Shown one piece after another: positions 42,745 to 57,001 of a DNA stretch of 64,000 bases (positions are counted from its first letter, which is position 1; each line of letters begins with the position of its first letter). The notes under the pieces were generated by a model. It made no database searches, was not told where the DNA came from, and saw only the letters and a program-made list of their open reading frames with translations. The translations under genes were made by a program, and so were the position numbers. The DNA is from Isoetes taiwanensis. Taxonomy: Eukaryota; Streptophyta; Lycopodiopsida; Isoetales; Isoetaceae. Location of the stretch: NCBI GenBank assembly GCA_021234155.1, contig JAJEKV010000015.1, positions 1,708,852 through 1,772,851 of the forward strand, given 5' to 3'.

Positions 42745-43035
42745 ATAGTCCATTATGAACTTATTACCAGTGGTTGATCAAAATCAAACCATTCCATTTC
42801 AATTCTCTTGGCCTTGGATAATAGGCTGGACCATTGAACAATCCACAACATTTGAGAGTGTTTCTTCTTTTAATATAATATTATTCATATAACGATTTTA
42901 TAACAGTTCTTCCTGCCAAAGATCAACGGTGAAGATTATACCTTTTTTTCAATCCTACCAAACTGGGTCCGCCGGAGCTCTGATTATTTTTTTGTTCAGA
43001 AACTTTGGCGATCCCAGTGAGGAGCTTGCGGCGCA

Positions 43036-46000
43036 ATGTCTTCGCCGGAGGAGGTAGCAGCAATTCAGGCAAATGCTTATACGCCATTTCCCCTGTGCTT
43101 ATCAAATTTGTTTTTTTTTCTGTGTGCTTCGTACCCATCTGCGATTTTTTTGTATTTTTTGGTCGAGTTTCTGATCTCTTTTTGGTTCTTCAGGGGTCGA
43201 AGATCCTGATGGTCGGAGCTGGAGGAATTGGATGTGAACTGCTTAAAACGCTGGTTTCGTCTGGTTTTAAGGACATTCACGTGGTGTGTAACACTTTGAC
43301 CAAGCTTTACAGTAGTTTTCTCTGCTCAAATTGTAAGCGCTTGGTTGAGAACTTCAAAGCGCGAGACATTTTTGGTGGAATTTAGTGTGCTGTGAGTTAA
43401 ATGGGAGGATCCATAAACCCTAGGAATTGGTAGCAGTGGTTGTCCCAAAGCTCGCAGAAGATTGTGCCACGCCAAGATCTAGAAAGCCATTGTTTAGTAG
43501 ACTGGCAGCACGTTCGGCATTACTTTCATACACTCTAAGGCATTGGTCCTCTTGTTTCTTCCGAACTTTTATTGTGCATGTTACGTTTGAGAATCAAAAT
43601 TATTATGGTACCCTTACAAAATCATTATGTACAGTATTGTCCAAAAGATAGCCAAAAAGCTTAGCTCTTATTTATATTAATAAAAGGCCGTGTGTTTTTT
43701 GAGTGTTAAAGCTCATTTGTACGCGCTCTAGCCTCTGCTTTTATTTATGACTTAGTTCCAAATAATAAGTGGAGTAAGCACAATACTTACTTGACTACGT
43801 GTTTATAGATTGATATGGACACCATCGAAGTCAGCAACTTAAACAGGCAGTTTCTTTTCCGAAAGTTCCATGTTGGGCAATCAAAAGCTAAAGTGAGTCA
43901 TGGCACGGTAGTTCAGTCACAAAATTAAATTTGTTTGTTAAATATCTCCTTATATGAAGTCACCATATCAGGCATTACATCCCAGGTTGCACGCGAGTCT
44001 GTCTTGAAATTTCGTCCAGATGTGAACATTGTTGCTCACCATGCAAATATCAAAGACAAGGAGTTTGATATTGAGTTTTACCAGAAGTTCAATGTGGTAC
44101 TTAATGGGCTGGACAACCTTGATGCAAGAAGACATGTTAACAGGCTTTGTTTGGCGGCAAACGTACCACTGGTTGAGAGTGGAACAGCTGGTTATTTGGG
44201 ACAGGTATGTGACTAATAAAGTAGATGCATAAGGTTATATTTGATGTTTGTTTGTGATATTTCCAGGTCACAGTACACATAAAGGGACGAACAGAATGCT
44301 ATGAGTGCCAGGAGAAGCCTCCACCAAAGACATATCCAATTTGTACTATAACAAGTACACCATCAAAGGTCTAGATATGATTTGTTTTTAAGGGTTTCAA
44401 TATGGAGCATGTAGTCTTTCTTTTTCTGATAGGACGAGGGTGGTTCAGTAAGTCAGGGATGTTTATTGTTTTACCACTGCTTTGATGTTCTTCTTCATCA
44501 ATAAGTCAGTAGAAAGGTAGTCATATTACTCAATCGGTGAAGGTGTTTTCTAAAGATGACATTTGAAAAGTTTTATAAGAACTGATAATCTAGTATTGAA
44601 TTATGATGATAGTGTTAACTGTCGAAACGCCTGCGAGAAATGCTTGTTTCAGTTTCTAGCTTCCTGAAGTTATCATGTTATGTAGTATGGAATTATATCT
44701 TCTAAAGCTTATAAATTGTTGATGCAGCCTGTCCATTGCATTGTCTGGGCCAAAGAGCTAGCATTTACTAAGCTTTTCGGGGACAAAACCCAGGCAGCTG
44801 ATTTGCAATTAGGTATGGTGGAGGCACCTTTGAAAGAAGAAGATAGTACAGCACAGCCTAAGTTGCAGAATGGTGAAGCAGCAATTGACTTGGCTTGCAG
44901 GATTTTTGACCAGATCTTTGGTCAGAACATCGAAGTGGCCTTAAAAAACGAGGATGCTTGGAAAACTAGGAGAAAACCATCTCCACTTTATATTCAGGAG
45001 ATTTTACCAGGAGGAAGTGGAAAGCTCGATGGACATGATTTCACCCATTCTTCTGTATCGGCAATGACAATTCTGGGCTTGCATGATCCGCAAAAAGTTT
45101 GGAATATAGAAGACAGCGCAAGAGTATTTTTGACATCAGTCAGATTGTTCTTTGAAGCACGAAGTAAGGTACAACAACTTTTTAACAAGAGGCATTGCCT
45201 GCATAAATTGGACATCTCATTCCCGTGTGCTTAGCTGAAGGCCAAATCTGCATGTTTATGACGACTTGTTCTTTTGTTTATGTGCATTTTAATACAGCTT
45301 TTGATCCATATATAATCTCCAGGAAATAGGAAGTTTAGCTTTTGACAAAGATGACAAATTAGCGTTGGAGTTTGTCACAGCAGCCGCCAATTTACGGGCC
45401 TATTCTTTTGGGATCCCAATGCTGAGCCTCTTTGACGTAAAAGGAATTGCAGGGAATATTGTCCATGCAATAGCAACAACGAATGCCATAATTGCTGGTC
45501 TGATTGTCCTTGAAGCAGTTAAAATCCTGACAAATAATCTTGCTGATTCTAGGTATATGCAATTTCCTTTGTTGTCACGGCTTTTTTCATTTGACATGGC
45601 ACATGAGAGAAGTTTCTTGCTTCAAAATATTGCAATGAAATTTTGTTTGTATCACCATAGCATAAGCCTCCTTTTCCTTTGGAAATTTGGTAATTTATTT
45701 AATTGTTGAAGCCTCCGTGAAGAAAGCATTCTGCTGGAATTGGAGCCATAGAACATTGTAGTCTTTGCCATTGTCCTACTTTGCAATAGAACATGTTCTC
45801 CTACTCATGCTGCTGTAAGTAGCGAAGCCTTAGCCCAATGCACTAGCCAAGATAAACATTAAGATCTACTCGCATCTATAAGTTCCTTTTTGAATAATAT
45901 TGATATTGTCTATGTCAAAATAATTGCCAGAACTTTTTATCTGATCATCTATAGGATAGTTTCTGAGGTTTGATTGATATTATTTGCAGGTCCACATATT

Positions 46001-46847
46001 TTTTGGAGCATCCATCTAAGAATATGCTGTTAATGCCAGTGGAGCCATTTGAACCTAACTCTAGGTGCTATGTTTGCTCACAGGTATATAATTTAGCCAG
46101 ATTTCTTATATGGAGTTTTTTCATGTTTTCTTATACCTATGACCTCATAAAATTTTCTTGCTTGGCAGACACCACTAGTTTTAGAAGTCAACACTTTGAA
46201 GACGAAATTCAGGGACTTGATAGAAAAGATTGTCAAGAGAAAGCTTGGCGTGAACTCACCTATCGTCATGCACGAATCAAATGTGCTATATGAAACTGGT
46301 GAAGATGTGGAAGCTATCATGGCCTCGAATTATGAAAATAACTTAGAAAAGGTGATTCTCATGCATCCTGAAATTCAGATATTTTCTGGGAAACTTAAGC
46401 TCATTATGATGTCATTGTAGATCCTTGCTGAGCTTTCTACACCAGTTATAAATGGTACTGTTCTTAGGATAGAAGATTTCGATCAGGATTTCACTTGTAC
46501 GGTTCACATTAAGCACAGGTTTGTTGTGCTGCTTTTACACGGTTTGTCCAATTCTAAAGAATCCATAGCGTAAACTTACTGATTTGTTGAAGAATGGCAG
46601 GGATGACTTTGATGAAGAAAAGGAACCTGATGGCATGCTCATACACGATGCTGCAATTGCGAGCATGCCATCCACCACACAGCCGAATGCTGGTAATGAA
46701 GCAAAGGTTGATGGTGATGGAGATGATTTGGAGGTTGTCTCTATGGATGAAGTTACCACAAGAGACAGAAAGAGGAAGCTTGAAGAGGCAAGCTGCAGTG
46801 ACGAGAAGAAACTCAAACTGCAATTATCTCCAAAAGAAGTTCTGTAA
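43036..46847 (+). CDS. SAE2: SUMO-activating enzyme subunit 2 (SAE2/UBA2), 11 exons
   Basis: Exons: 43036-43068, 43194-43283, 43809-43892, 43986-44204, 44267-44368, 44728-45168, 45323-45552, 45990-46083, 46169-46351, 46421-46518 and 46601-46847. They join in frame to 606 codons, close to the 625-640 aa of known SAE2. The protein has the ATP-binding loop [13 protein letters not shown] (about 17-29), [20 protein letters not shown], the adenylation region [12 protein letters not shown], and the catalytic-cysteine motif [11 protein letters not shown] (Cys168). Zinc ligands are ECYEC (153/156) and RCYVC (about 426/429). A ubiquitin-fold region ([13 protein letters not shown]) and an acidic tail with an RDRKRKLEE nuclear signal follow. 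With SAE1 it adenylates SUMO and passes it to the E2. The first intron appears to use a GC donor. Confidence 0.95.
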
Positions 46848-47061
46848 AATTATCAAGCTGCTCGCATATGCACAGCATTTTGAATCAATTTTGTAAATTT
46901 ACTAATCCCGCATTTTGGTGCCATAAGTGGGTCAAAAAAATTTGGGCATAATCACTGCTTATGGTAACGGTTTGTCAAAGTTTCAATCCGAAGAGCCATG
47001 CTCAAATGCCTTTGGCAGTGCTGCAGTCCAACAAATGTATTGCACATTCAAGTTATGTAGT
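46848..47061. other. SAE2 3' flank
   Basis: Presumed 3' untranslated region and spacer. No canonical AATAAA is obvious. It ends at the foldback next to the Crypton-like element. Confidence 0.5.
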
Positions 47062-47222
47062 AGGGAATCTACGCCCCGAGGGCATTCCGCCGAGGAATTT
47101 CCGAGGCGGCGCCGCCAGCCGAGGCGGCGCGACGAGCGGGCGGATGAAAGTGCGCCGGCCGAGGCTGGCGGCTCCGCCGAGGAATATTCCGAGGGGGGAT
47201 GCCCGAGGGGCGTAGATTCCCT
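47062..47222. repeat. 161-bp GC-rich foldback
   Basis: AGGGAATCTACGCCCC at 47062-47077 is the exact complement of GGGGCGTAGATTCCCT at 47207-47222. The interior is more than 70% GC by eye, with repeated CCGAGGC/GCCTCGG-like blocks that allow further pairing. It directly abuts the palindromic left site of the Crypton-like element. No ORF longer than its own length is meaningful here. Confidence 0.85.
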
Positions 47223-47224
47223 TA

Positions 47225-47251
47225 CGTAATCCCACGTAAGGGTGGGATTAC
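47225..47251 (+). other. left palindromic end site
   Basis: Ten-base inverted arms GTAATCCCAC and GTGGGATTAC flank the six-base asymmetric spacer GTAAGG. The layout resembles the core site of a tyrosine recombinase, but no recombination has been shown. Confidence 0.6.
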
Positions 47252-47349
47252 GAACAGAGTAATTTTTTTTTTTCCTTGCTTCATTCCGGCAAGCCGATTC
47301 TCGCCGGTATAGTGGCGCTGCTTCTTCTGATCAGTTCCGGTGAGGCGCC

Positions 47350-47707
47350 GTGTTAGTTAGATAGGATTTTGTTAAAGAAATTTCATGTTCTTCAAGTTTC
47401 TTGAAAGTTGTTCGAGTTTTTTGGAGTAGAGGCACTTCCGGGCAGCTTCTGGCGACTTTGTTCTCGGCTTTTTTTTGTTTGGTGAGGATACGCTTGAAGA
47501 ATCTGTTTATTCTGCTGTTTTCTTGTAAATCTAACTTGTTCTTTCTGTTTTTTGTTAGGTTCTTGGTTACGTCCGGATTCGGTGGAGGCTAGTGTTAGTT
47601 AGATAGCATTTTGTTAAAGAAATTTCATGTTCTTCAAGTTTCTTGAAACTTGTTCGAGTTTTTTGGAGTAGAGGCACTTCCGGGCAGCTTCTGGCGACTT
47701 TGTTCTG
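47350..47707 (+). repeat. 116-bp direct repeat 242 bp apart in the recombinase leader
   Basis: The sequence from GTGTTAGTTAGATAGGATTT at 47350 to about 47465 recurs at 47592-47707 with a handful of changes. It lies in the probable 5' untranslated region and may duplicate a promoter or leader exon. Possible leader introns with GT-AG borders follow (for example from 47730 and 47892). Confidence 0.85.
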
Positions 47708-48058
47708 GCAGCTCGATTTGTTCTGGCAGGTAATCTTTAGTTTTATTTAGTGAGTGATTTATCTATGGATTTCTTTATGTTTATGCTTGCATTACTTTTA
47801 CAGATTTGAGAGTCTGTTGTTGTGCTCGAGTCTGTTATTGTGCTCAACTATAAGGAAGACATCTGTGGATCCTTCTGCAAGACAAATTTTAGGTCAGTAA
47901 TCCTTGTGCTAGGGTTTAGTTTAGTGGTTTGGTTTAGTTTAGTTTAGTTTTAGTTTAGTGTTTAAGTTCGGCTAGGGTAACTAATGTTGTTTTCTTTTTA
48001 TGTATGGTGCAGGTTCAGTTGTGTTGTAAACAGCAGGTGTTAAGACTGACTTGTTATT

Positions 48059-50398
48059 ATGTCTGTTATGCAACCAGTATGTTTAACATGCTTGTTTGTC
48101 ATAATAGCAAATATGGGAGAGAGTTCTCAGCCAAGTTTCTGTCTGGTACCTGGAGAGGGTTCTTTATTGATGCCTTCAAGTCCTGTTACATTGGAAGAAA
48201 GTCAAAGCATCCTAGCAGAGTTTGCTGTTGGTGACAGTAGTAGCGATGAGGAATATGATCCAAAGGAGAATTGGCTTCCACTTGATGAGGATTTATTGTC
48301 TGAAGCTTTGAACGGTGGTCCTGAGCGGTCAAAGAGTGTTAATAGCTGGGCGAGAAGAAGATTTGATGAGTGGAGGAAGGATTTTGGTTTGGATATGAAT
48401 ATTCCGATTGAGAAGTTGAGTTTGGTTGAGCTGAACAAGATGTTGACGAGGTTTATTCTTCAGGTAACATTTCGTTTGTTGTTTCGTTTATTTTTTTTTG
48501 TTTTGTATTTTATATTCTGATATCTTTGTTATGTTTTTCTAATAGGCTAAAAAGAAGAATGGAAAGATGTATCCACCCGGAACGTAAGTTCTCTTTGTCA
48601 TTTGCTATTTTCAATTTTATTATTTTCTTTTTTTGTTGTATTTTATTATATGTTCTTGTTTCCTTACTTTCTATTCTTGTTTTTGTTTCTGTTGTAGGCT
48701 TAACTCTCTATTGAGAGGTATCGGCAGGATTGTTCGTAGAGAGCAGCAGAGAGTTCAAGGAGAGACGGGTGTTCGGGAGCCTCCATTTAATATCTTGTAT
48801 GACCCAATATTTACGCAGACTATGGATGCGTTTGTCAGCAGGGTTAAGAAGTTGAGACAAGATGGAAATTACGAGAAACCAAAGAAGAAAGCACCTGTCA
48901 TAACCTTCGCTTTAGAAAAGGATATTTTAGATGACATAGATCATCAGATGACACATCCCACAGGTTGTATAAAAAGGCTTTTCTATTACATGGTTACACG
49001 CTTTGGGATTAGAGGAAACAAAGAGTTGTGGAGAGTAAAGGATTGTGACATGACTCTTGAGGTCAATGATGGTGGAGAGTTGGTCAAATACGGGGAACGA
49101 TTGAGTAAGAATCATAATCCAACGCCTACAAAGTATGAAGATCATCACTTTCGCCAACCTGTTTGGACATACGAGCGTGATTTTGTACTGACATATAAGC
49201 AGTATATTCGACACTTGCCCGCGAAAGAAAATAATTCCATGCCACGTCCTTTTTTTCTACAGCCTATTCCTAGGTATAAAAAAAATGTAAGTTTCTAATT
49301 CTTTCTTTTGTTTTTTAATTGATTGTTCTGTTAATGTTTGTGTTAATGTTTCTGTTAATGTTTCTTTTCTGTTAATTGATTGTTCTGTTAATTGACTGTC
49401 CTTGAGTGTTAATGTTTTAATTCTGTGTTTTAATTCTGTATTTTCTGTTTCAGGTGTGGTATGCTGTGACAACTGTTGGTATTAATTCTATTACGAAGTG
49501 GCTCAATACAATGGCAGCAACAATCCATCCTGACACTGAAGTCTGCAACAAGTCTGGCAGGGTTTCATTAGTTTCACGTCTTTCAGCTGCTAGTGTTCCT
49601 TCTGACGTAGGCATGGCAATTACTGGGCATAGAAGCGCGCCAGGTTATGAGAGGTAATTCATAATTTATTTTGTTTGTTTTATCTATTTTGTTTTGTCTA
49701 TTCTGTTTGCCTTTGGTAACATTTTTCTTGCAGGTACGATCGAACTGGAGAGTCGAAAATAAATGCATGTATGAATTTAATTAGTCAACCAATCAATTCT
49801 GATGGGCAGATGCGTGCATACAAGGATGTCCTTTCTGGTAATGTCTTTGAACCTTCTGTTGTTTTTGTTATTTCTTTTGTTATATTTTTTTCCTTTCTGT
49901 TTTGCAGATGAAGTTTCCAAGCAGAATGCTGTTGGGACTTCTTCCAGGAACGTTCTTCAAGAATTGAATGGAAATGTGACAACATCAACAATTCTGCGTG
50001 TTAAAGATAGTTCAGTTGCTACTGGTTGTGATGATATGCAGTTAGGAGGTGATGCTAGTGCTTGCGATCAAGTACAGGTACAGACAGGTGTACAGGAAAG
50101 TATGAGTGAGATTGCTGCTAAGCAAATTACCATTGAGAAGTCTCGAGACATTGTTAGTAATCCTGTGCCAGTTATTGAGGTCGACGAGGAGGACGTATAT
50201 GATGCAGCTTTTTATGACGAGCTTAGCAAGTGTTTCCCTGAAAGTGCTAAAGCAATTGGGAAGTATTCAGGTCCTGTCATTAACACTCAAGGAAGCTTCA
50301 CGAACTGCACGATTAATATTGGAATGGACATGAATCAGTTTGTTGGAGCTATCGGAGCTATTACGAGTGCGTTGTGGAAGAAGAAAAATGAAGCCTGA
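48059..50398 (+). CDS. Crypton/DUF3504-type tyrosine recombinase, six coding exons
   Basis: Coding exons: 48059-48463, 48546-48583, 48698-49286, 49454-49653, 49734-49837 and 49908-50398. All have GT-AG borders and join to 608 codons without a stop. ATG 48113 is in frame, has a better context, and would give 590 aa. The N-terminal core-binding part has NSWARRRFDEWRKDFGL, KNGKMYPPGTLNSLLRGIGR and FNILYDPIFTQTMDAF, as in DUF3504 proteins (Cryptons, ZMYM2, KCTD1). The catalytic part shows Arg in FGIRGNKELW (about 253), Lys in RLSKN (about 285), Arg in KSGRVSLVSRL (about 380), His in TGHRS (about 403) and the nucleophile Tyr in RYDR (about 412). The usual His before the second Arg is Lys. The C-terminal 160 residues are acidic and unrecognised, and could bind DNA or partners. 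Confidence 0.8.
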
Positions 50399-50730
50399 TA
50401 TCTAGATCCAGTTGACTTTGAGCTGTGTTTTCTCTTTAATCAGAATGTTCAGTTGTTTCATAATGTTCAGTTGTTTTCAGAATTTTCAGAATGTTCAGTT
50501 GTTGAAACTATCAAATTGGTGAAACTATGAAACTATGATTTTGCTGTGTAACTGTAACTATGAAACTATGATTTTGCTGTGAAACTATGATTTTGAAATG
50601 CTGTGTAACTGTAATCTTTTAATATTGTGAATCTTGTCTTGTTAATGTATGAAATAAGAGTAATGTTGTGAATCTTGTAATCTTGTGGTGGAGATAAAAT
50701 TACTGGTTTTAAAACACACAGAAAAAAACA
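50399..50730 (+). other. 3' region of the Crypton-like element with short repeats
   Basis: Noncoding DNA after the recombinase stop. ATGTTCAGTTGTT and GAAACTATGATTTTGCTGTG each recur several times (50440-50620), giving a low-complexity tail before the right end site. Confidence 0.6.
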
Positions 50731-50756
50731 GTAATCCCACCCTTACGTGGATTACG
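50731..50756 (-). other. right palindromic end site
   Basis: Arms GTAATCCCAC and GTGGATTAC (one base shorter) flank CCTTAC, the reverse complement of the left spacer. The site is therefore inverted relative to the left one. Confidence 0.6.
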
Positions 50757-52278
50757 AAATGTGCAAAGTTTCAAGCCGACGTCTTGATTTTCATTTTCCG
50801 TGGTTTCCTTTGCACTATGTGTTCAATTGACTGGTATGGGATGTTTTCATCTTTTACTGTGAACCATTGATCTGTGGAATATTCTTAGATGAAGGGCCTC
50901 TAATTTTTTCTGCGTGAACCCAATAAAAGTTTCAATGGTGCAACTAAAATAACAAAAACTAGTGGTGGGTGACAAACATGTATCGCATTATTGTCATAAA
51001 ATATCTACAACCCAAAGTCTTGAAGCACAATTTAAAAAGTCAAGTTGGCTATGCTGTGGCTATGCCGTAGAATTCATTGCAAGAATACCTTCCTGTAATA
51101 CGAAACAAATTGTGCAAAGTTTATAGGAGTCCAAATTGAACTCTTGGTACTAGTGGTGGATAGGTGATTTTTTATTTGCGTAATTGGCCAGTGTTTTTTA
51201 TATGCAATTATATGCCTGCAATGTTGGGCATTAGTCAAGGTGAGGATATGAAAAGACGAAGCAATAATATTGCACATACGCTTCTGAACCCAAGAAGGTA
51301 GTGATGTTACACCTCTTTTATTGAATTGTTTTTGCTAAATATTCATATAGTGAATGGTTTGTATTTGAGATTAAGTGTTGAGTTTCTTACAACATATTAA
51401 AATCTAGTATCTATTGAAATACATCTTTGTTAATACAAGAAATTTATCGTGGCGGAAGGCCGCCGCAAACATTTCTCTTCTTCTTCTTTTCCAAAATTAT
51501 CATAAGGGATTTTTGTGTTAATTCGAAAATGGTGTAAAGAAGTCCAAAAAAGCACCCTAAAATTCCCTCATGTTCTAGGATTCTTTGACTATAACGAATG
51601 TGGTCTCTGAAAGAGAGTGATTGGCCGTATGATGTTTTTCATGCCAAACCTACTTCATATTCTGCCCTATTTATACTACAATTACATTCTTTCTCATCTT
51701 ATTCAACAATAAGAACCCTCATCTACATAATTGGTAATAGAATCAACATAATAGGAATTCACTTGTTAAATGTCAAATGTTTGCCAAATTTTATGTACTA
51801 TACGTCCCAAGTATGAATGGAAAATATTTGCTATATGCTACAATGCTAACATACAGATGACAAAAAATATTTGGTACGTGTTGCATGCCGTCCTTATAAG
51901 CCAACTTACGTATGAATATAATTGAAGCTCGTTTTTATTAATGGGTTCCTATTTTATTATCTTTATTTCTTTGGCTCCTAGCCTGTTTAATTAGAATGTG
52001 CAACAGTATAAATTTCCAAAGCTAACTTCTGGACCATTTCCTTTCGTTTAAAGATGTGCAGGCAGACTCATTATTAACATCATAATCCTTCTAACTTTAC
52101 TTGTTTAAAGGTTAGAATTGCCAAGACTACTCGATGTATCAATTTAGATAGTTGAAAACATGCAGGAGTTGAACCCGCACTACAACCTTATGTTTTATGC
52201 CCGTAGGATAGATAGGCGCTATAGTTGACCACCATGGAATTCCCATTATTGTTTGTCCCATCCTTTTTTTGTTTCCAG
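50757..52278. other. intergenic, nothing recognised
   Basis: No protein domain or structured repeat is seen on either strand. Confidence 0.5.
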
Positions 52279-52577: not shown

Positions 52578-52689
<112 letters not shown>

Positions 52690-54293: not shown

Positions 54294-55912
54294 TGATGTG
54301 GTTAATTATAATAATAATAATAATAATAATAGATTATCTGAAGCCCGTTTGGGACCTTGATTATACTACAGTGCGTATGCAACAAAAAAAAAAAAGAGAT
54401 GCATATATGCAGCAATGTGAGGAGCAAGCTAGCAAAGTAGTGTGGCCAAGTGATGCAGTGGGAATTGATGAGAAACTTACATTTATGCTATTAAACATTG
54501 TGAATCAATGTTTTTTATCTGGAAGAAAACAAAAGGGTTTACCGTGTAATAGTTGGTATGACGCTGAATGTAAAGCAAAGAGGCTTGAATTTAAGAATGC
54601 TGCTTTGGAAGAAAGGCAAATGATAAGGAATGAATATCGCTACCTGGTTAGACGTAAAAAAAGGATGTATTTGCAGGAAAGGCAAGAGGCTCTAGTGGAG
54701 GAACTTCTAAAAGATCCCAAGAAGTTTTGGACACAAATAAAAAATAAAAGGAAACATGACCAAAAGTTGGATATAGAGCAGCTTATGCAACAAGTACGTA
54801 AATTGTATCACATAGATGGATTAGATGACCGATTGCAAAGAAAGGGATCTCTATTGGTGCTAACTGAAGATGATGTGACAGATGGTATAAAGAGGCTCTC
54901 ATATGGGAAAGCGAAAGATGCTTTTGGTTTAGTCGCAGAAATGGTGAAGTGGGCTGGTGTTACTGTGAAGAGGGTTATTACAAATATGTTGAATGATGCT
55001 TTAGTTAATGGCTTTCCTCCCTCCTGGCAGGTTAATAGAGTTACACCCATTCATAAAAGTGGAGATGTTCATGATCCGAACAACTATCGGTGGTAAGCAG
55101 TTTGTTTGCTAAACTTTTTGCTACAATATTAGAGCGTAAAGTAAGTACATGGGCTGAAGAAAATAATGTAAGGGCAACCGGACAAGCTGGTTTTAGGCCT
55201 CAACGATCCACCATAGACCATTTGGTTACTATTAGAGCCATTACTGAGTCTGTTAAGAAGACCAAAAAGCCGCTTTTTGCTCTTTTTGTAGATTTGACTA
55301 AAGCATTTGATATGCTTAGAAGGAGAAATATTTGGAAGTACATGGAGTTCATTGGGGTACCTATAGAACTAAGAAATGCAGTGGCCACTTTGTACGAGAA
55401 GGTTGTGGTGAGGCTTTCTTTCCCATTATATAGGTCATTAGTAACATTGGATTGGAGTCAAGCAGGGGTGTCCACTTTCTCCAACACTTTTTGGAATATA
55501 TGTTGATCAATTGGAGGGATGGTTACAATAACAAGGTGGAAGAGGGACCACGATTGTTGGGTATATACTCTCATTGTTGCTTTATGCAGATGATATTGTG
55601 ATATTTGCTAGAACGGTGAAAGACATGCAACAACATATCAATGCGCTTGCGCTTTTTTGCAAAAATACAGGTATGCAGGTAAATTTGAATAAGACTAAGA
55701 TATTAGTTTTTGGTGTGAGATCACCCAATTTTCAGTTTTACTATAATGAGCAACAAATTGAGATTTGTGATACCTATAGGTATCTTGGTTTGATAGTTGA
55801 TCATAACTATGGCTGGAATAAATCTGTGGAGCATAGGACAAATGCTGGGCTTAAAGCCCTTTATGCAATGCAAAGGAAGTGTTGGAAGGCAAATATCCGC
55901 ATTGGAAATTAA
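54290..55912 (+). pseudogene. LINE ORF2 reverse transcriptase, broken
   Basis: Three blocks (54290-55096, 55090-55506 and 55574-55912) make up the polymerase: VNRVTPIHKSGDVHDPNNYR, GQAGFRPQRSTIDHLVTIRA, FALFVDLTKAFDMLRR, then VKQGCPLSPTLFGIYVDQLE in another frame, and LLYADDIVIFAR. The catalytic YADD is intact. A frameshift near 55090, another near 55445 and a TAA near 55535 interrupt it. The first block's start runs through a poly-Ile stretch encoded by the trinucleotide run. Confidence 0.85.
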
Positions 55913-56802
55913 AAAAGATGCTCTATGATATGCTTGTGCGCAGTGTAATTCTATATGGATGTGAAGCATGGGGACCGGGATTGTCACTTGATATGTGGAA
56001 GAGGGTAGAGAAAATACAAAAAAAGTTTATTTTGGCAGAGTTGGGTGTTGTGCAGACTCCGTATCCTATGATGTTGGCAGAAACTAGTATGTGGCCATTA
56101 GAAGAAGAAGCACTTTATTGCACTCTAAAGTATCTGATTAAAGTACAGGAAATGGATGCACAAAGGTTGCCTAAGCTTGCATTGATACAAAGTACTATGA
56201 AGGGTTGGTATGCAGATATCGATAAATGGCTCAGGAAATGGGGGATGTCGTTAAACGAAATTCCTGATGATAGTAAAAAGTTGAGAGAATGGATGGCAGG
56301 AAAAATCTATACTACTCTATGGCATGATGCAGGTACAAAAGGAAAGTTTTACAAGGCCATTATTAACCCTGAACTTCAAGTTGCACCCCATTTGGGGAGT
56401 AAGATGACTTACTTTAAACGACATTTACTATGCAGATTACGTTTGAGTTCACATCATCTGGGGGTGGAGGTAGGCAGATGGGGTAATTTCCCTAGAAGCA
56501 GACGCACTTGTAAGGTTTGTGGTGATGATGAAATAGAGGATGAAGAACACTTTGTACTGGAGTGTCCTGCATATCAAAACTTGAGGCGTAAGAATAATAT
56601 ACCTCAGGGGATTTCATTACATACCTTCTTTATGCTACCATTGGAAAATATATGTAACTATTTGATAGATAGCTGGAAAGTGAGAGAGTTAGCTGTTAAA
56701 AACTACAGACAATTGTTAGAGTTATATGAAGATGAGGAGAGAGAGGACAATGATGCTCTAATGGAGAGCTCATTTGATCAGATGGATGATAAGCAATTTT
56801 GA
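55879..56802 (+). CDS. LINE ORF2 C-terminus with CCHC motif
   Basis: This 307-codon block continues the ORF2 protein. It has MLVRSVILYGCEAWG, a conserved segment found after the thumb of many LINE polymerases, and near residue 215 the zinc motif CKVCGDDEIEDEEHFVLEC. The frame overlaps the previous one near 55880-55912, which indicates a small indel. The stop at 56800 precedes the short 3' untranslated region. Confidence 0.8.
   Translation: MLEGKYPHWKLKKMLYDMLVRSVILYGCEAWGPGLSLDMWKRVEKIQKKFILAELGVVQTPYPMMLAETSMWPLEEEALYCTLKYLIKVQEMDAQRLPKLALIQSTMKGWYADIDKWLRKWGMSLNEIPDDSKKLREWMAGKIYTTLWHDAGTKGKFYKAIINPELQVAPHLGSKMTYFKRHLLCRLRLSSHHLGVEVGRWGNFPRSRRTCKVCGDDEIEDEEHFVLECPAYQNLRRKNNIPQGISLHTFFMLPLENICNYLIDSWKVRELAVKNYRQLLELYEDEEREDNDALMESSFDQMDDKQF

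Positions 56803-56842: not shown

Positions 56843-57001
<159 letters not shown>

Follow-up and report, generated by a model that had tools for sequence, protein, structure and literature searches.

Introduction

Cryptons are DNA transposons which, like the element described here, carry a tyrosine recombinase (YR) of the DUF3504 lineage as their only recognised transposition gene, with no reverse transcriptase found. In the sections of Kojima and Jurka (2011, PMC3212892) that deal with their structure, Cryptons are described as having neither terminal inverted repeats (TIRs) nor long direct repeats; for animal Cryptons, terminal repeats were not found and a C-terminal domain is said to be absent. 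Here we analyzed a stretch of 64,000 nucleotides from Isoetes taiwanensis (assembly GCA_021234155.1, contig JAJEKV010000015.1, positions 1,708,852 to 1,772,851 of the forward strand), referred to below as the window, and found at positions 47225-50756 what is probably a complete-looking, potentially autonomous DNA transposon of 3,532 bp, whose only recognised gene codes for a DUF3504-lineage tyrosine recombinase. We refer to it as a Crypton-like YR DNA transposon with inverted ends, beside an SAE2-like gene.

Two further groups of systems are relevant to this locus. The substrates of YRs are given as arms of 11-13 bp with spacers of 6-8 bp in the corresponding section of Kojima and Jurka (PMC3212892), and dif sites, in the passage of PMC8371274 that defines them, consist of two 11-nt repeats with a 6-nt spacer. 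The domain lineage is also common to the window protein and to domesticated DUF3504 genes (QRICH1, ZMYM2-4, KCTD1, KIAA1958 and WOC), which are reported in PMC3212892, as far as its section on them goes, to be without most catalytic residues, the catalytic Tyr and the second Arg being lost in animals.

Results

The window encodes a DUF3504-lineage tyrosine recombinase

The recombinase gene as modelled comprises six exons between 48059 and 50398, which splice into 1,827 nt (608 codons and a stop) as follows:

48059..48463, plus strand: exon 1, acidic N-terminus and start of the core-binding part; candidate start codon
48546..48583, plus strand: exon 2 of the splice model; join within the P0005 alignment
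48698..49286, plus strand: exon 3, core-binding part, catalytic R253 and conserved K285
49454..49653, plus strand: exon 4, K377xxR380 box and H403
49734..49837, plus strand: exon 5, nucleophile Y412
49908..50398, plus strand: exon 6, C-terminal tail with a GS-x-x-NC motif common to P0005

The active-site set of the encoded protein is R-K-(K)-R-H-Y (R253, K285, K377, R380, H403 and Y412), so that the tyrosine recombinase pattern R..(H/K)xxR..(H/W)..Y was matched by R253, K377xxR380, H403 and Y412. An earlier note on this DNA had observed that the His of the HxxR box aligns with Lys, and the residues of the box, N-K377-S-G-R380, bear this out. In Pfam, the window protein matched DUF3504 (PF12012) with 19.3 bits (E 0.0013), and its closest relative P0005 with 15.9 bits, both below the gathering score of 29.7 bits. 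Phage_integrase (PF00589, gathering score 27.1 bits) gave no match to the window protein; among the relatives, P0001 and P0003 passed this cut-off and P0002, P0004 and P0005 fell short of it. An hhalign comparison against four proteins above the DUF3504 cut-off gave a probability of 99.8% (E 6.4e-28, 327 columns), and a six-member profile searched against PDB sequences had QRICH1 as its best match (E 5.7e-15). The structure model of P0005 shows a predicted YR catalytic fold. Taken with the profile evidence, this fold supports the assignment to the DUF3504 lineage of tyrosine recombinases, as the earlier note had proposed, with a direct Pfam match that stays below the cut-off.

Similarity searches found five related proteins (P0001-P0005), of which P0005 (556 aa, source tag lgn) was the closest. 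In a single comparison with residues 75-583 of the window protein, 167 of 529 columns were identical (32%, E 7e-70). This level of identity sets the two proteins apart, whereas they share the same layout, the Lys in the HxxR box and a similar C-terminal end. The Lys-for-His change lies within residues 345-355 of P0005. The shared Lys suggests a KxxR subgroup of DUF3504-lineage recombinases.

With regard to the gene model, all five introns have GT..AG borders and are short (70-167 nt), the T content is 58-64% in introns and 13-32% in exons, and keeping in any single one of the five introns produces a premature stop at aa 149-470. The exon joins fall at residues 135, 148, 344, 411 and 445, all inside the range 75-583 aligned by BLASTP with P0005; because this alignment spans the five joins, it provides independent support for the model. 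Joins 1 to 4 lie in well-aligned stretches, and join 5 (residue 445) is less well supported because the stretch around it is weakly aligned and gapped. Since similarity starts at residue 75, which leaves the first 74 residues unaligned, the choice of start codon is left between candidates, ATG 48059 or 48113 among others. The joining of six exons into 608 stop-free codons, stated in the earlier note, agrees with both the splice model and the P0005 alignment, and every DUF3504 motif quoted there is present in the translation.

The gene is flanked by dif-like inverted ends

The recombinase gene is flanked by TIRs that the earlier note did not report. The element and the repeats within it are:

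47225..50756, plus strand: whole TIR-bounded element, 3,532 bp, with boundaries that we infer from the TIRs
47225..47252, plus strand: left TIR, 11-bp arms CGTAATCCCAC / GTGGGATTACG, 6-bp spacer GTAAGG
50731..50756, minus strand: right TIR, arms GTAATCCCAC / GTGGATTACG, spacer CCTTAC, one base missing in the outer arm
47350..47464, plus strand: 115-bp direct repeat, copy 1 (98%), 5' non-coding part of the element
47592..47706, plus strand: 115-bp direct repeat, copy 2, 5' non-coding part of the element

The TIRs have a perfect core of 20 bp (47232-47251 against 50731-50750), and when the two ends are aligned locally, 28 of 30 columns of the best alignment are identical, the other two being a gap and a mismatch. 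Shuffling the flanks (46851-48058 and 50399-51600) 40 times gave perfect inverted matches of at most 12, versus the 20 observed. At the left end, two arms and a 6-bp spacer form a perfect palindrome (11-6-11), and the right end is the same two-arm palindrome minus one base, also with a 6-bp spacer. The left end is the only perfect palindrome in the window with arms of at least 10 and a spacer of 6, and no exact match of the end motif was found elsewhere in the window. Because the arms are palindromic, GTAATCCCAC can be read in direct orientation at the left end (47226) as well as at the right (50731). In arm and spacer length these ends resemble dif/Xer sites as given in the above passage of PMC8371274, which differ in being chromosomal sites and not transposon ends. 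The end pattern GTAATCCCAC-N6-GTGGGATTAC had 0 exact matches in viral or prokaryote contigs, neither collection being of plants.

Between the TIRs, a Pfam scan of ten further frames recognised no transposase, polymerase, reverse transcriptase or RNase H, and neither reverse transcriptase nor RNase H was seen by eye in the remaining frames. Terminal direct repeats of 4-6 bp count among the features of Cryptons; here, apart from the direct copies of GTAATCCCAC that the arms provide, direct repeats of 4-8 bp are absent immediately outside the ends, the only one being ATGT if a foldback next to the left end (described below) is omitted from the left flank. Short repeats are present in the host flanks, CAAAGTTTCAA(T/G)CCGA at 46976-46991 and 50764-50779 and TGTGCAAAGTTT at 50764-50779 and 51111-51122, and are not significant; the first, in direct orientation, was considered as a target duplication and was not used as evidence, given its E of 0.63 in the window and its position away from the ends. 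Around the 115-bp direct repeats, introns of a 5' untranslated region look possible by eye.

The foldback, GC-rich and 161 bp long (47062-47222), with 16-bp perfect ends AGGGAATCTACGCCCC, lies two bases outside the left TIR. It was rejected as part of the element, as nothing similar was seen at the right end, and is treated as a separate insertion, perhaps a Harbinger-like one in view of its 16-bp ends; by eye it has an imperfect GTA/TTA target repeat. An overlapping palindrome (9-6-9), CCCTTACGT-AATCCC-ACGTAAGGG, is made up of the tip of the foldback and the bases that follow (47219-47242).

Genomic setting of the element

The element starts 378 bp past the end of an open frame at 46569-46847. 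Upstream, a ThiF match (42984-43382) was above the Pfam cut-off and a UAE_UbL match (46421-46570) just under it, with 28.6 bits for a cut-off of 30.8. Judged from these domain matches, the pieces at 42984-46847 would represent an SAE2/UBA2-like (SUMO-activating enzyme) gene, of which the frame 46569-46847 is presumably the close.

The window also contains a long interspersed nuclear element (LINE) that carries DUF4283 and zf-RVT domains besides its reverse transcriptase. A retrotransposon near the start of the window has both reverse transcriptase and RNase H. LINEs with DUF4283 and zf-RVT, which we take to be plant marks, support the plant-like genome proposed in the earlier note. A Pfam scan of ten neighbouring frames left four without a match, and no RNA gene was found in the window by Rfam and ARAGORN (bacterial code). 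Two long pure (TC)n arrays (52583-52674 and 56846-57000) bracket LINE-like reading frames at about 53.5-56.8 kb; the frame 55855-56799, between the arrays, had no Pfam match.

Discussion

A tyrosine recombinase as the only recognised transposition gene, and the lack of a reverse transcriptase in the frames covered, are common to this element and to Cryptons. In contrast, the element has TIRs with a 20-bp perfect core, a Lys for the His of the HxxR box, a long C-terminal tail and plant-type DNA around it. Filing it simply as a Crypton, as the earlier note did, is not supported, and we do not treat it as a canonical one because the absence of TIRs, by which Cryptons are described in the section of PMC3212892 cited above, was looked for and TIRs were found.

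Another reading is that of a domesticated YR gene like animal ZMYM2/QRICH1, i.e., a former transposon kept as a DNA-binding host gene. The long intact gene with five introns, its acidic N-terminus and long C-terminal tail, the single copy seen in the window and a sub-threshold Pfam match of the protein to the QRICH1 domain (E 0.0022) are consistent with such a history. However, the window protein keeps R, K, R, H and Y, including R253, R380, H403 and Y412, as opposed to the loss of Tyr and second Arg reported for animals in PMC3212892, and its gene lies between almost perfect TIRs. Between the two states allowed for in the earlier note, recently active or domesticated, the intact gene and the near-perfect ends favour a mobile element, and we consider domestication unlikely.

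It could also be argued that the TIRs derive from an unrelated cut-and-paste (DDE) element and that the YR gene is carried along as a passenger or lies there by chance, since TIRs typically point to a DDE element and Cryptons are described without them (PMC3212892, same section). This origin seems quite improbable in view of the lack of another transposase recognised by Pfam in the ten further frames, the YR-site type of end structure, the lack of a target-site duplication abutting the ends, and a YR gene that fills most of the element. Recent transfer from a different eukaryote, or an assembly that includes foreign DNA, would agree with the finding of only five related proteins by similarity searches; on the other hand, the same continuous window has LINE domains of plant type, the element stands 378 bp past the frame taken as the end of the SAE2-like host gene, and identity to the closest relative found is just 32%, which makes a recent foreign origin very improbable. 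An old horizontal origin of the element remains conceivable. A phage or virus origin was rejected after no relative could be confirmed in scans of viral contigs with P0005 and alignment A1 and of prokaryote contigs with alignment A2, at the limited reach of 6, 2 and 2 peptide patterns. Finally, DIRS elements carry a YR and inverted ends, but a remnant of a DIRS/Ngaro-type YR retrotransposon is extremely unlikely, as reverse transcriptase and RNase H were found neither by Pfam in the ten further frames nor by eye in the others, and the YR belongs to the DUF3504 lineage.

Several observations weigh against a complete-looking YR transposon. The 360-residue core of the window protein, searched alone against PDB sequences, gave no match up to E 5, and the P0005 model has a mean predicted local distance difference test (pLDDT) value of 48.9; between residues 191 and 390 the values per ten residues run from 55 to 84. 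Counting the left end, the 64 kb contain three perfect palindromes that have 11-bp arms and a spacer of 4-9; two of them lie elsewhere (spacers 5 and 8), so the palindrome alone is weak evidence. The lack of a target-site duplication abutting the TIRs is compatible with a YR, but also with two ends that match by chance, and only one copy of the element was seen in the window. In addition, the spacers GTAAGG and CCTTAC are reverse complements of each other and do not match in direct orientation, so that direct pairing of the ends would be the weakest step of the mechanism considered below.

If the element is a YR transposon, recombinase dimers would bind the arms of each end and the two ends would pair, which could take place in the direct sense because the arms are palindromic. 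Tyr412 would then cut at the spacer edges via a phosphotyrosine link, and the element would be excised as a circle with a mismatched 6-bp joint and subsequently re-integrated. Alternatively, an enzyme demanding matching spacers would invert the element instead of excising it. A mismatched joint on circle excision is known for integrases of the Tn916/Tn1549 type. The YR transposons of that type are bacterial, conjugative and multigene, unlike the element, and no sequence kinship with them was shown. We tentatively propose, at somewhat short of even chances, that plants have a lineage of YR DNA transposons distinct from canonical Cryptons, marked by inverted ends of the dif type and a KxxR active site and moving by a Tn916-like circle with a mismatched joint. 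This would be a mobile element of eukaryotes that follows the same logic as bacterial integrative transposons.

The earlier note held that Cryptons are not a standard transposon class of land plants. A 2024 paper agrees with this, stating in the passage concerned that Cryptons were not identified in plants (PMC11397423); against it, an entry 'Crypton 535' stands in one column of a comparison of plant transposable element databases, without sequence evidence in that passage (PMC8729191). Among the matches listed in a search of the open-access literature, with Repbase Reports outside the search, the passages returned held no plant Crypton with inverted ends. Crypton boundaries are called difficult to characterise in a passage of PMC3212892, and Crypton movement is therefore poorly tested. 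An intact YR gene with clearly defined inverted sites constitutes a small, concrete substrate for the direct test of a eukaryotic YR transposase. Should other plants have copies too, the element would represent an additional transposon class for plant genomes.
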